Shown: positions 13,574 through 18,910 of the stretch, piece after piece
How positions within the stretch are numbered: position 1 is the stretch's first letter
Layout: each line of letters starts with the position of its first letter
Assembly: GCF_000429645.1 (NCBI RefSeq)
Contig: NZ_AUCG01000020.1
Span: 186,001 to 250,000 of the forward strand
DNA: 64,000 nt
Direction of reading: 5' to 3'
From: Niveispirillum irakense DSM 11586
GTDB taxonomy: Bacteria > Pseudomonadota > Alphaproteobacteria > Azospirillales > Azospirillaceae
Translations under genes and position numbers: made by a program
The notes under the pieces: generated by a model
Seen by the model: only the letters and a program-made list of their open reading frames with translations
Told to the model about the DNA's origin: nothing
Databases searched by the model: none

Positions 13574-14050
13574 TCAGTCTTCCGATCCCATCTGTTCTTG
13601 CAGGTAATTCTGGATGCCGACCTTGTCGATCAGGCCGAGCTGGGTTTCCAGCCAGTCGATATGCTCCTCCGTATCCTCCAGGATGCGGCGGAAAATCTCC
13701 TTGGACTGATAATCCCGGACCGACTCGCAATATTGCATGGCGTCGATCAGTTCCGTGCGGTTACGGGTTTCGACCGCCAGATCACCCTTGAAGCATTCCG
13801 GCACGTCTTCGCCGATCAGCAGCTTGTGCAGATCTTGCAGATTGGGCAGCCCATCCAGGAACAGCACCCGTTCGATCAGCAGATCGGCATGCTTCATTTC
13901 GCCGATCGATTCCTCGTACACCTTCTTGGCCAGACGCAGGAATCCCCAGTTCTTCAGCATGCGTGCATGCAGGAAATACTGGTTGATGGCCGTCAGCTCG
14001 TTCGCGAGGATGGTGTTGAGGTGACGGATGACGATGGGATCGCCTTTCAT
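13574..14050 (-). CDS. bfr: Bacterioferritin
   Basis: 158 aa, the normal length, and residue numbering matches E. coli Bfr exactly. Di-iron ferroxidase ligands are visible as Glu18 ([10 protein letters not shown]), Glu51 and His54 (IGEMKHAD), and in the second half Glu94 plus the EDTEEHIDW segment (Glu127, His130). Met52 is the haem ligand position. It forms a 24-subunit cage that oxidises and stores iron in the cytosol. AAGG sits 7 nt before the ATG. The upstream region holds a Fur-like box (14156-14174) and a separate dyad (14190-14218), shared with the divergent MaoC gene. No bacterioferritin-associated ferredoxin gene is adjacent. Confidence 0.96.
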
Positions 14051-14280: not shown

Positions 14281-14748
14281 ATGGCGAAGCCGGTCTATTT
14301 TGAAGATTTTACCCCCGGTATGGCGCTGACTTTCGGTGACAGGCTGGTCACGGCGGAAGAAATCGTGACCTTTGCGCGGGAATATGACCCGCAGCCGTTT
14401 CATCTGGATGAGGAGGCTGGACGGGCCACCCATTTTGGCGGCTTGGTGGCCAGTGGCTGGCAGACCGCCGGTTTCATGATGCGGATGCTGGTGGACAATA
14501 TGTTGTCGCCAGAGGGCTCGCTCGGCTCCCCCGGTCTGGACGAGTTGCGCTGGCTGCGTCCGGTACGGCCCGGTGACCGGCTGAGTGTGCGGGTGGAGGT
14601 GCTGGAGACCCGCCTTTCGCGCTCCCGGCCCGGCATGGGGACGGTGCGTCAACGAAGCGAGGTGCTGAATCAGCATGGCGAGGTCGTGATGTCCACCATA
14701 TCGGTGGGCATGTTCCGCACCCGGTCGGCGGGCGCCGCTACAAGCTAA
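14281..14748 (+). CDS. MaoC-family (R)-hydratase/dehydratase-like protein
   Basis: A 155-aa single hot-dog domain. The hydratase-2 motif appears as FAREYDPQPFHLDEEAG (catalytic Asp and His), followed by FGGLVASGWQTAGFMMRMLVD and the LRWLRPVRPGDRLSVRVEV strand pair. Family members hydrate enoyl-CoA or related thioesters in the cytosol. A strong GGGGAGG lies upstream of the ATG at 14281. It stands alone, divergent from bfr, with no fatty-acid genes beside it, so the substrate cannot be inferred. Confidence 0.9.
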   Translation: MAKPVYFEDFTPGMALTFGDRLVTAEEIVTFAREYDPQPFHLDEEAGRATHFGGLVASGWQTAGFMMRMLVDNMLSPEGSLGSPGLDELRWLRPVRPGDRLSVRVEVLETRLSRSRPGMGTVRQRSEVLNQHGEVVMSTISVGMFRTRSAGAATS

Positions 14749-14871: not shown

Positions 14872-15081
14872 ATGTCACGAGACTTTTTCGATCTCTCTCC
14901 GGGTGAATGGGTGGAAGAGCTGCAGCCGCCCCGTCGACGCATGCAGATTCTGGCCATTCACACCCGCCCGGGAGCCAAAGCGGCCAATGTCGAGATGGCG
15001 ATTGCCGGTAACAATGTGGACCGGATCAGCCTCTCGATCTTCGCTTTGTCTGACACTGCCAGGTTCCGTCGCCTCCGGTGA
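14872..15081 (+). CDS. Small conserved-looking protein, paralogue of the gene at 16030-16263
   Basis: A 69-aa protein (MSRDFFDLSPGEWVEEL...). It aligns with the 77-aa product of 16030-16263: both have PG[E/D]W[V/L]EEL, then PRRR, an alternating hydrophobic strand with His, V-E, D-R-[I/L]-S-L, and A-R-F-R-R near the C-terminus. The match needs only a one-residue gap. Two such copies either side of dedA argue that the ORF is real. Predicted soluble, basic, mixed alpha/beta; no known domain. The ribosome site is weak (GGGG about 11 nt away). Its stop codon lies inside a terminator hairpin. Confidence 0.7.
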   Translation: MSRDFFDLSPGEWVEELQPPRRRMQILAIHTRPGAKAANVEMAIAGNNVDRISLSIFALSDTARFRRLR

Positions 15082-15089
15082 GGCGACGG
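15066..15089 (+). terminator. Hairpin overlapping the stop codon of the small gene
   Basis: CCGTCGCCTC-CGGT-GAGGCGACGG: a perfect 10-bp stem with a 4-nt loop followed by TTACTT. The UGA stop (15079-15081) lies within it, so the last codons (Arg-Leu-Arg) are part of the stem. Confidence 0.6.
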
Positions 15090-15101
15090 TTACTTCCGCC
15101 A

Positions 15102-15716
15102 TCAGGTAGGCTGGCTGGGGCCTTTGATGGCGCGACGGCCTAGCCGCCACAGATACACGCCCACCACGATTACAACGACGATTTTAGAGAGCGGGTCTAC
15201 ATACTGCTCTACCAGTTCATACTGGCTTTCCAGCAGATAGCCGGCACCTGCCAGCACCGTGGTCCAAACCAGCGACCCGACTGTGGTCAGCACCAGGAAC
15301 AGCGGCAGGCTCATCCGGGCCAGACCCGCAGGGACTGAAATCAGGGTGCGGATCGCCGGGATGAGACGGCCGAACAGGACCGCCTTGCGACCATGGCGCT
15401 CAAACCAGGAGAATGCCTGTTCCACATCGGGCGGGTCCATCGTCATGATGAAGCCGAAGCGGCGTGACAGTTCGATCAGCCGGTCGTGCCCGACAGCGCG
15501 ACCCAGCGCGTACCAGGGCAGGGCGCCCAGGACAGAGCCGGCGGTTCCGAACAGAACCACCAGGATGGGGTCCATCTTGCCCTGTGCGGCCAGGAACCCG
15601 CCCAGCGGCATTATCGCCTCTGAAGGGATTGGGGGGAAAAGGTTTTCCAGGAACATCAGGGCCAGCAGCCCCCAATATCCCATCTGCTCCACAAGGCCCA
15701 GCGCCCATTCAAACAT
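15102..15716 (-). CDS. DedA-family membrane protein
   Basis: A 204-aa integral membrane protein with the DedA/VTT signature: FLENLFPPIPSEAIMPLGGF at residues about 22-41 (re-entrant loop with the conserved Glu and Pro residues), then GALPWYALGRAVG and FGRLIPAIRTLISVPAG (conserved Arg pair). DedA proteins are linked to lipid-carrier (undecaprenyl phosphate) or phospholipid scramblase function and cation/pH tolerance. It is convergent with one small paralogous gene (ends 15081) and divergent from the other (16030-16263), across a 313-bp gap. Length is as expected. Confidence 0.92.
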   Translation of the reverse strand: MFEWALGLVEQMGYWGLLALMFLENLFPPIPSEAIMPLGGFLAAQGKMDPILVVLFGTAGSVLGALPWYALGRAVGHDRLIELSRRFGFIMTMDPPDVEQAFSWFERHGRKAVLFGRLIPAIRTLISVPAGLARMSLPLFLVLTTVGSLVWTTVLAGAGYLLESQYELVEQYVDPLSKIVVVIVVGVYLWRLGRRAIKGPSQPT

Positions 15717-16029
15717 CGATTTTCCTGTCTTTATTTCTCGGCGCCGATCGCCGCTGCCACTCTCCGTTTAACGCATAGCTCATTTCCGAGGCTATCGGGA
15801 ACAACGCCTTCGCGCCGATAGCAGGCCCCTGAACAGATCATGGAATGATATTGTGCTACCTCTGATGGCCTATTCCTTATGGTGAAATTTAGGATATCAT
15901 GGTGTCGAGTATATCCGTGTATACCGGACCCTCCTGATCATGGGGCGATGGGCAGGGCGGCGGCAGATGCCTTTGGGGTTGGATCTGCCGGCCAGGGGCA
16001 GGTTGGATAAGGGATTGCAGGAGATGTCG
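15717..16029. other. 313-bp intergenic region between dedA and the second small paralogue
   Basis: No gene of its own was seen. It contains GCTATCGG (15791-15798) and its reverse complement CCGATAGC (15815-15822) 16 nt apart, and an AT-richer stretch around 15880-15925 where promoters for either flanking gene could lie. An ideal AGGAG (16019-16023) at the right end serves the gene at 16030. Confidence 0.5.
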
Positions 16030-16263
16030 ATGGTATTGTCCAGGCGCGCGATGGAGCCTCCCAAACCGGGTGATTGGCTGGAAGAGCTTAAACTCCCCCG
16101 GCGCCGGCTGCTTGTGCATGCGGTGCATCAGCATGCGGCCCGCCCCGTTCATGTGGAATTTCTGGTGGAAGGGCGATCCAGCGATCGCTTGTCGCTCGCT
16201 TTGGAAGTGGTCCTGGATGGTGCCCGTTTCCGCCGCATGGGCGCCACTCAGGACGCGGCCTGA
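16030..16263 (+). CDS. Small conserved-looking protein, paralogue of the gene at 14872-15081
   Basis: A 77-aa protein beginning MVLSRRAMEPP. AGGAG with a 6-nt spacer points to the ATG at 16030; an ATG at 16024 lies right against the AGGAG, and the open frame extends to 15940. It shares the PGDWLEEL-xx-PRRR block, the V-E pair, DRLSL and ARFRR with the 69-aa protein upstream of dedA, and differs mostly in the middle (HAVHQHAARP) and by a short C-terminal tail. Soluble, no known domain. A rho-independent terminator follows at 16298-16330. Function unknown. Confidence 0.75.
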   Translation: MVLSRRAMEPPKPGDWLEELKLPRRRLLVHAVHQHAARPVHVEFLVEGRSSDRLSLALEVVLDGARFRRMGATQDAA

Positions 16264-16297
16264 TCTGCCCGTCCGGCAAGCGTGCGAAGTCTTGAAA

Positions 16298-16330
16298 GTC
16301 GCGCCGACCTGATCGTCGGCGCGGCTTTTT
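16298..16330 (+). terminator. Rho-independent terminator
   Basis: GTCGCGCCGAC, 6-nt loop, GTCGGCGCGGC (one G-U pair), then TTTTT. It ends the small gene at 16030-16263. Confidence 0.8.
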
Positions 16331-16385: not shown

Positions 16386-16922
16386 TCATGCCTGCGTCTG
16401 AAACCAGCGTGCGGCCACCTGGGCGGCGCCTGTGAAGCTGGCGGATACAGGGCCGGTGGCCGGATCGACCAGCATCAGGTTCACCGGCAGGCCAAATTCC
16501 TCCACCTCCATCTGATCGGCATCCCGCCAGACCCGGCCATCATGGGCCAGATATTGCCGGGCCTGCGTGCGCTGGAGCAGCGGGCGGATATCGCCGGACC
16601 AGGGGAAGACGGGTTTGCCCAAGGCCGCTGCGAACCCCATCTCATAGGCTGTGCCATCATCGACTGAAGGCCCCCGGAAGGGCATGCAGTTGGCGATGAC
16701 GCCATCGGCCCCCCGGATCAGATCCAGATTGGCCTGCCGGATGCGGGCGGCAAACGCCGTCCCGCTTTCCCCTGCATTCGGTGTCAGGGCGTTGTCGGTG
16801 GGGAACACCCCTTCCAACCCCATCTCCTCGCAGATGGCCTTCATGGCGGCGGCTGCCGCCATCGGGTCCGGCAGGAAGACATCCGGGCCTGCCAGATAGA
16901 GCCGGGGCCGACGGCTGCTCAC
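16386..16922 (-). CDS. Nucleoside 2-deoxyribosyltransferase
   Basis: A 178-aa cytosolic enzyme that moves 2-deoxyribose between nucleobases. N-terminal LYLAGPDVFLPDP is the substrate loop. RQANLDLIRGADGVIANCMPF followed by GPSVDDGTAYEMGFAAALGKPV is the family signature, with the Glu of YEMG at the nucleophile position. The start ATG overlaps the stop of the upstream cpdB gene by 4 bp (ATGA), so the two are translationally coupled. Together they suggest salvage: periplasmic breakdown of nucleotides, then base exchange inside the cell. Confidence 0.92.
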   Translation of the reverse strand: MSSRRPRLYLAGPDVFLPDPMAAAAAMKAICEEMGLEGVFPTDNALTPNAGESGTAFAARIRQANLDLIRGADGVIANCMPFRGPSVDDGTAYEMGFAAALGKPVFPWSGDIRPLLQRTQARQYLAHDGRVWRDADQMEVEEFGLPVNLMLVDPATGPVSASFTGAAQVAARWFQTQA

Positions 16923-18910
16923 TTGGCGCCCCCTTTGCCGGACATGTCGAATTTGAACAGGGCAAAGCCATTCTCGCCCGGGCCCTGATAGGTCAGCTTC
17001 GGCTGCTCGGCCAGGAGTTGCTGGGCGATGGGGGAGGTGTCGTAAAGGATCGTGGCCTTATCCCCCAGGGGGGCGAAGGTGAAGCTGTTATCGGTCGTCG
17101 GCTCAATCACGCCCTTGGCGCGGATATAAGCCACGACCGCTTCCTGCACCGTATCCGGCGACTGGTAGATCACCGTGCTGCCATCCAGATGCGGGAAACT
17201 GCCGCCGCCATTGGCGCGATAATTATTGGTGACGACGATGAAGGCCTGGTCATCGGCCACCGGCTTGCCTTGGAACAGAACCTGCTTGATGCGGTGGGCA
17301 TCGGGATTGATCAGGCTGCCGTCGCGGTCGAACCGTTCCGGCTGGGTCAGGTCGATGACATAATTGATGCCATCAATGATATCGAACGCATAGCTGGGCA
17401 CGGACCGGTTGACCAGCATCTGGGGTTCGGTCCGGTTCGGGTCGATCACGGCCAGGGCCCGCGACGACATTTCCAGCCAGTCCCGCACCTGGGCACCGGT
17501 CAGTTTCACGGCCACAAGCTGGTTGGGATAGACATAGAGGTCGGCGACATTGCGGATGGCGATTTCCCCCTCCGGCATGTCGGTGTAGAAGCCCACGCCC
17601 GGCCGCCCGCCCGACTTGAAGGGCGCGGTGGCCGACAGGATCGGCAGGCCGGCATGCTCGGTTCCCGCCAAGGCGCGGGTGATATAATCGCGCTGTGCCT
17701 CAGCCACCAGTTCCATGCCGGGGCTGTCGCCAAGGAAGGCGAAATAGGAATGGATGCGCCCCGTGGTGCGGCCCACCGGGCGGCGGACATAGCGCAGCGT
17801 GCCTTCATGCGCCGGGGCCAGAAGGGCGGCCAGTTCCGCATCTGCCGGGGTAGAGACGGTCTTGCCATCCTTGCGGGCCTGGATCGGCCGGGCTTCGCCG
17901 CGCCCTTCCACCACTTTCCATTGGCTGCCCTGTTTTTCCAGCTTCAGGGAGATCACGCCCAGGTGGCTGCCATAGCTGCCGGCCATGACCAGGGGTTTGC
18001 CATTCACCGTACCCTGCTTCAGATCGGCGCCGGGCAGGCCGTCATAATCCTTGGAGGGGAAGACGCGGTGGCTGTGACCGGTGATCACCGCATCCACACC
18101 GGTAATCTCTGTCAGATAGTTGGAAGCATTCTCCTCCCCCCCCTGGCGGGGTTGGAAGTTCATGCCGGCATGGGACAGGACGATGATGATGTCAGCGCCC
18201 TGCTTCTTCATCTCCGGCACATAGACATTGGCCATATCGATGATGTCGCGCGTGGTGACGCGACCATCCAGCTTGTCCTTGTCCCAGATCATGATCTGGG
18301 GCGTCAGCAGGCCCAGCAGGCCGACCTTGACCTTCTGCTTCTTGCCGTCGCTATCCACCAGTTCCCGATCCTGGATGACATAGGGGCTGTAAAGCGGCTT
18401 GTCATTGTCCGGGTTGTCGTCGCCATCGACCTTGAAGACGTTGCCGGCCAGGATGGGGAATTTCGCCCCGGCTTCAACGCTGCCCAGTGTGTCCAGGCCG
18501 AAATTGAATTCGTGGTTGCCCAGCACGGCCGCGTCATAGCCCAGCAGGTTGAGGGCGGCCATGGCGGGATGGGGCCTGTCCTTGTCGATGCCGCGTTCGC
18601 GCACCACCCAGTCGCCCATGGGTGTGCCCTGGATCAGATCGCCATTATCGACCAGCAGCGTATTGGGATTGGCGGCACGGGCGGCCCGGATCAGCGGCGC
18701 CACCCGGACCAGCCCCACAGCCTCGTCCTGCCGGTCAGCATAATAATCATAATCCTTCAGGTACATGTGCAGGTCGGTCGTGGCCAGTACCTGCAAGTCC
18801 ACCTTCTGGGCCATCGCGGGCACCGCCGCCGACAGCATCACTGCCCCCGCCGCAAAGGCGGCCATCCCGAACGCACGAATCAAGGAAAGCTCCATCCGAA
18901 CAAAGTTCAT
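16919..18910 (-). CDS. cpdB: Periplasmic 2',3'-cyclic-nucleotide 2'-phosphodiesterase/3'-nucleotidase
   Basis: 663 aa, typical length. A signal peptide (SLIRAFGMAAFAAGAVMLSAAVPAMAQ) sends it to the periplasm. The calcineurin-like metallophosphoesterase domain has TTDLHMYL, DNGDLIQGTP, GNHEFNFGLDTL, VLSHAGMN and GHSHRVFP, all metal-ligand blocks. The C-terminal 5'-nucleotidase domain includes the FKSGGRPGVGFYT and ITVTNNYRANGGGSFP-like (FIVVTNNYRANGG) segments. It hydrolyses 2',3'-cyclic nucleotides and 3'-nucleotides to nucleosides and phosphate. The start could also be the Met six codons in. It is first in an operon with the deoxyribosyltransferase; no Pho box was recognised in the 250-bp upstream gap. 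Confidence 0.94.
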   Translation of the reverse strand: MNFVRMELSLIRAFGMAAFAAGAVMLSAAVPAMAQKVDLQVLATTDLHMYLKDYDYYADRQDEAVGLVRVAPLIRAARAANPNTLLVDNGDLIQGTPMGDWVVRERGIDKDRPHPAMAALNLLGYDAAVLGNHEFNFGLDTLGSVEAGAKFPILAGNVFKVDGDDNPDNDKPLYSPYVIQDRELVDSDGKKQKVKVGLLGLLTPQIMIWDKDKLDGRVTTRDIIDMANVYVPEMKKQGADIIIVLSHAGMNFQPRQGGEENASNYLTEITGVDAVITGHSHRVFPSKDYDGLPGADLKQGTVNGKPLVMAGSYGSHLGVISLKLEKQGSQWKVVEGRGEARPIQARKDGKTVSTPADAELAALLAPAHEGTLRYVRRPVGRTTGRIHSYFAFLGDSPGMELVAEAQRDYITRALAGTEHAGLPILSATAPFKSGGRPGVGFYTDMPEGEIAIRNVADLYVYPNQLVAVKLTGAQVRDWLEMSSRALAVIDPNRTEPQMLVNRSVPSYAFDIIDGINYVIDLTQPERFDRDGSLINPDAHRIKQVLFQGKPVADDQAFIVVTNNYRANGGGSFPHLDGSTVIYQSPDTVQEAVVAYIRAKGVIEPTTDNSFTFAPLGDKATILYDTSPIAQQLLAEQPKLTYQGPGENGFALFKFDMSGKGGAK

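Follow-up and report, generated by a model that had tools for sequence, protein, structure and literature searches.

Two small paralogous genes flanking dedA in Niveispirillum irakense: members of an unnamed alphaproteobacterial family with a predicted SH3/Tudor-like barrel

The window, the whole stretch of 64,000 nucleotides analysed here, belongs to the 5.45-Mb genome of Niveispirillum irakense DSM 11586 and contains two very short genes, termed A and B, on either side of a dedA-type gene. Translation confirmed both open reading frames, with products of 69 aa (A) and 77 aa (B). The features of the locus are as follows.

13574-14050, minus strand: ferritin-like gene, upstream of A
14281-14748, plus strand: MaoC-like gene, upstream of A
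14872-15081, plus strand: gene A, 69 aa; a diverged copy with asparagine in place of the family histidine and a one-residue insertion before that position
15066-15089, plus strand: hairpin at the last codons and stop of A, without a T run; not conserved
15102-15716, minus strand: dedA-type gene with a VTT domain, between A and B; a neighbour outside the A/B unit
15870-15903, plus strand: conserved block upstream of B, from an alignment of 7 loci of Niveispirillum relatives; also upstream of the divergent dedA
16019-16023, plus strand: ribosome site AGGAG of B
16030-16263, plus strand: gene B, 77 aa; strongly conserved and nearer the family pattern than A
16294-16330, plus strand: intrinsic-terminator-like hairpin after B, a 15-bp stem running into a T run
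16386-16922, minus strand: nucleoside 2-deoxyribosyltransferase-like gene, downstream of B
16919-18910, minus strand: metallophosphoesterase / 5'-nucleotidase-like gene, downstream of B

The last two genes (16386-18910, minus strand) overlap by 4 nt. An earlier note on this DNA had credited one of the two small genes with an ideal ribosome site; this gene is B, whose AGGAG ends 6 nt 5' of the ATG, and AGGAG or GGGAG precedes B in the relatives whose sequences were compared. The ribosome site of A is weak in the window, and a GGAG- or GGGG-type sequence occupies this place in most relatives. The same note described hairpins after both genes. This is true of the window, where the stretches 3' of both genes fold well (z of -3.3 for A and -4.6 for B), but conservation is confined to B: 14 of 20 loci have a terminator-like hairpin after B (2% in mononucleotide shuffles), and just 2 of 12 have one after A (0.8%). 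The A gene of the window is not one of these two: its own hairpin reaches into the final codons and lacks a T run. A promoter and terminator scan reported no element at all, including the hairpin after B that is clear by folding, and an Rfam search gave no match at E≤1. By its sequence, B is a single gene, served by a ribosome site and a terminator-like hairpin of its own. The conserved block at 15870-15903 lies 125-160 nt upstream of B and is possibly a promoter with a leader of more than 100 nt. In Nitrospirillum, a different conserved block is found at a similar distance upstream of B.

Local alignment of A with B gave a score of 136 over 59 columns with one gap, whereas 5000 shuffles of B gave a mean of 23.6 (sd 4.5) and a maximum of 50. 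The near end-to-end similarity with a one-residue gap that had been described earlier is therefore borne out. All 21 B sequences and all 12 A sequences preserve the reading frame and the ATG, and between genera the protein similarity ends at the ATG. The dN/dS check proposed in the earlier note gave low pN/pS inside each copy: mean pN and pS were 0.131 and 0.565 within B (18 sequences) and 0.207 and 0.609 within A (10 sequences), with 0.410 and 0.626 between the two copies within a genome (9 pairs). Because synonymous sites are near saturation, these values give no exact rate, but they do show purifying selection within each copy.

GC-rich DNA is rich in chance open reading frames, 46 of which, at 40 aa or longer, overlap 5.5 kb here, and A and B could in principle be spurious frames that resemble one another by chance. 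This reading has a negligible probability and was rejected, given an alignment score far beyond all shuffles, the conserved frame, start and ribosome site, and the purifying selection indicated for each copy; in addition, Azospirillum plasmids carry members of the wider family under the annotation hypothetical protein. The earlier note had staked the reality of the genes on homologues with a conserved frame and on a score beyond that of shuffled sequences, and both were found. Judged from sequence comparison, A and B are real, protein-coding paralogues, as that note had supposed.

A search of 59 genomes, that of the window included, with B identified a B-like protein at E≤3.6e-32 in 18, and 12 of these 18 also encode a second, A-like copy at E≤3e-9. 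At E≤0.1 the number of matching genomes rises to 25, those beyond the 18 being weak. Among named records, 17 loci with B belong to genera that include Niveispirillum, Nitrospirillum, Oleisolibacter and Aerophototrophica, and B is present in Indioceanicola too; the plasmid records of Niveispirillum cyanobacteriorum and Indioceanicola carry no gene annotation on the stretch concerned. In the genome of the window, B as query found no third copy at E≤10, and the widest family profile described below (A4) found just A and B at E≤0.001.

Gene order was compared across 24 loci, 22 with B and 12 with A. The dedA gene lies between A and B in all 11 loci that hold both on one stretch, and two further loci have B and dedA, with A not nearby. 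By contrast, A and dedA are both absent from the 11.7-19 kb stretches that carry B in all seven Nitrospirillum-type loci. It follows that dedA is a neighbour by descent, part of an inherited gene order, and a dedA-linked unit was rejected. A adjoins maoC in 11 of 12 loci, and B adjoins the deoxyribosyltransferase gene in 16 of 22, which makes the latter, not dedA, the commonest neighbour of B. Two loci carry about 2.8 kb of extra DNA between A and dedA.

A tree built from 79 rows and 74 columns groups A and B together in one clade (support 100/99) and B in one clade (99/100), while A is a single clade in only 27% of bootstrap trees; the tool warned that the columns are too few and that long branches meet where the A/B clade begins. 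The simplest reading is that a single duplication preceded the split of the genera and that A was later lost.

The earlier note had considered the two proteins perhaps lineage-specific, and this reading is not supported. A profile of 22 A/B sequences (A1) picked up short proteins elsewhere in Azospirillaceae, in 30 of 82 genomes at E≤0.01, and was iterated to profiles A2, A3 and A4, the last with 50 members. A4 excludes one sequence truncated at its start and another with a partial match. At E≤0.001, class genomes were matched in 26 of 289 cases by A2, a count that includes one long protein, transferase-like by sequence and probably a chance match; in 66 of 385 by A3; and in 71 of 372 by A4, 33 of these 71 having themselves supplied rows to A4. 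Fewer than one chance match is expected per search, if the E-values hold, and the counts are possibly too low, as only part of the first-look candidates was scored in most genomes. Across the phylum, A3 matched 6 of 398 genomes: that of the window, four more from the class and a single one from outside it (E 4.3e-4). Within Azospirillaceae, A4 found at least one member in 82 of 82 genomes, of which 14 had supplied rows to it, and in 13 of 13 genera.

Both A and B match A4 over the whole domain, and both are themselves rows of it. A profile comparison of 30 members from outside Azospirillaceae, aligned alone (A7), with A1 gave E 3.2e-11 over 69 columns; the A7 members had originally been found through profiles containing A and B. 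A reversed profile produced no match at E≤1 among 4960 local open reading frames. These sequence comparisons place A and B in one large alphaproteobacterial family of proteins of about 70 residues.

Several subgroups of the family occur within Azospirillaceae, and one genome gave nine family matches where two or three are usual. The wide family also includes two proteins annotated as hypothetical, WP_014249984.1 (Azospirillum lipoferum 4B) and WP_012978408.1 (Azospirillum sp. B510). They were found with an Azospirillaceae family member as query, and their subgroup, placed by close relatives, stands apart from A and B in the tree. In two Azospirillum plasmid records, a member is flanked by a branched-chain amino acid transporter cluster on one side and an MBL-fold hydrolase gene on the other; a plasmid search with two other members gave no matches.

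Neither protein carries a recognised domain, in agreement with the earlier note. Among the 22 A/B proteins and the 50 members, no convincing match was obtained from Pfam (best E 0.0049, one member, below the cut-off) or NCBIfam (best E 0.016, one member). PHROG gave none at E≤0.01, one of the 22 A/B proteins reaching an entry at E 0.084. The best Pfam match, DUF1381 (E 0.0049), involved one distant member and was discarded. B matches Pfam Dioxygenase_C (E 0.025) over 31 of its residues, at 14.5 bits where the cut-off is 27.3, and this was taken as chance; 6 of the 22 A/B proteins reach this entry at E≤1, the best at 0.019. Sequence searches of the PDB gave best E-values of 1.5 with A1 and 0.28 with A4, the latter to a designed SH3 protein. 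Two wider-family members found nothing in phage records and A1 confirmed nothing in viral contigs, so that with PHROG also giving no support, a phage origin was rejected as far as searched. Matches in a viral structure library were mostly uncharacterised proteins (best E 3.1e-3). A search of openly licensed papers for small proteins of Niveispirillum and Azospirillum, and for small SH3-like or Tudor-like proteins of Alphaproteobacteria, found nothing on the family.

AlphaFold models were obtained for A (50 rows; mean pLDDT 87.6, pTM 0.74) and B (22 rows; mean pLDDT 82.9, pTM 0.69). Both consist of five antiparallel strands in the same order, with a short helical turn before the last. The predicted fold class is clear, an SH3/Tudor-like barrel with no clear nearest relative, and family membership and this fold, taken jointly, are held with high confidence. 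This is a new, unnamed family of known fold type.

Conservation across the 50 aligned members is strongest at columns of G (48), H (43), D (41), V (43), W (32) and a closing aromatic F/Y/W (50). The near-invariant histidine column holds H in 43 rows, N in 5 and Y in 2, the N rows being the five A copies included. Across the wider collection of A and B sequences, this position is histidine in 21 of 21 B copies and asparagine in 12 of 12 A copies, and A has a one-residue insertion directly before it. The exchange of histidine for asparagine is the difference that most clearly separates the copies.

Foldseek matches of both models to solved structures were weak, the best at E 0.026 for A and, for B, E 0.05 to an Spt4:Spt5 entry. 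They included CAP-Gly, R67 dihydrofolate reductase, chromo, Tudor and ribosomal chains, and SH3 and KOW domains also appeared in the Foldseek and VIA-align comparisons. The Spt4:Spt5 match, the frequency of ribosomal chains and a net charge between +1 and +4 in each of the 22 A/B proteins counted would suit a KOW-like protein, associated with nucleic acid or the ribosome, whose basic barrel binds rRNA, mRNA or DNA directly. Such a role appears unlikely: the matches are weak, ribosomal barrels are numerous in the PDB, and the conserved columns are G, H, D and aromatics and not a shared basic patch.

With VIA-align, the A model gave Z-scores of 7.7 to TraI, 7.0 to CarD, 6.8 to VapX, 6.6 to R67, 6.4 each to DUF1653, Spt5 and UvrD, and 6.3 to PcrA; all are below 8, a range in which the tool warns that a common arrangement alone may be shown. 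The closeness of R67 and VapX to the A model raises the idea of a small-molecule binding protein or enzyme with an R67-type barrel, or of an antitoxin-like partner with a VapX-type barrel. Their scores lie in the same range as those of many unrelated barrels, the neighbour survey described below revealed no constant partner gene, and either role is very improbable.

HspQ (5ycq), a small SH3-like factor for Lon, was also among the Foldseek matches of the B model, at rank 30 (E 0.48). Small stand-alone genes would fit a stress adaptor, and HspQ/YccV-like proteins (PF08755) are likewise small, single-domain and SH3-like. An HspQ-like protease adaptor or activator is nevertheless improbable. PF08755 membership was rejected, with no YccV match in the 50 members and an hhalign probability of 0.3% for the profile, and an HspQ/YccV-like protein was not detected in the genome of the window, where A and B occur. 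LarA, a Lon activator of Alphaproteobacteria, belongs to DUF1150, and its C-terminal region is helical (PMC10665427). No DUF1150 match was found in the 50 members, and LarA membership was rejected; LarA ends in a helix and short tail, whereas the A model ends in a strand.

Two further families of small proteins, DUF1653 (PF07866) and DUF2158 (PF09926), are comparable to A and B in length. The DUF1653 structure has a fold similar to the A model, and DUF2158 is presumed to resemble the A/B family. Membership in either was rejected: neither matched any of the 50 members, and hhalign with one sequence of DUF1653 and one partial sequence of DUF2158 gave nothing. Each of these families occurs in just 1 of 40 relatives.

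The RNA polymerase interaction domain (RID) of CarD/Mfd (PF02559) and the C-terminal Tudor domain of PcrA/UvrD share with A and B a five-strand barrel, predicted in the latter, and a similar size; the A/B family differs in being a stand-alone protein of about 70 aa with its own conserved columns, and PF02559 had no match at E≤0.1 in the 50 members. Profile similarity to the Mfd-type RID is weak (hhalign probability 12%, E 0.0025) and still exceeds that to HspQ, DUF2158 and DUF1653, the last two compared as single sequences. Tudor-like domains of Mfd, CarD, RapA and PcrA/UvrD bind RNA polymerase, the CarD/Mfd RID at its beta subunit, and CarD, Spt5, UvrD and PcrA act on it.

A survey of 47 loci with a simple ORF picker revealed no constant neighbour cluster; the two widest, present in 13 and 9 loci at varying places, received no identity from a family search. 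Together with the terminator-like hairpin after B, this argues for a stand-alone gene, and a stand-alone gene may act in trans by docking. It is proposed that one duplication produced the pair; B stayed near the family pattern, and A lost the near-invariant histidine. In the mechanism favoured here, the barrel would be a small trans-acting module that docks on a piece of the housekeeping machinery through its edge and the conserved H, D and aromatic positions, and A would be a variant with altered binding. A rough probability of 0.45 is assigned to this mechanism as a whole, and docking on some protein partner is itself put at a little under even odds. RNA polymerase is the first choice of partner, because it is the target of several bacterial barrels of this shape whose partners are known. 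This choice is doubtful: every Z-score lies below 8, TraI, VapX, R67 dihydrofolate reductase and eukaryotic readers score no worse than CarD, similarity to the Mfd-type RID is weak, and none of the 50 members matched the Pfam RID.

The family is widespread, with members throughout the Azospirillaceae sampled and in 71 of 372 class genomes, and yet it has no convincing sequence match in Pfam, NCBIfam, PHROG or the PDB. In a bolder version of the docking proposal, which is speculative and improbable, the family would serve the transcription machinery of Alphaproteobacteria as a Tudor-like, single-gene cofactor specific to this class and universal in Azospirillaceae, and A, its key histidine exchanged for asparagine, would be a built-in modulator or antagonist of B. 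With one short gene per locus, a predicted fold, few conserved residues and, in A, a natural variant altered at the most conserved polar position, the family is a compact test case.
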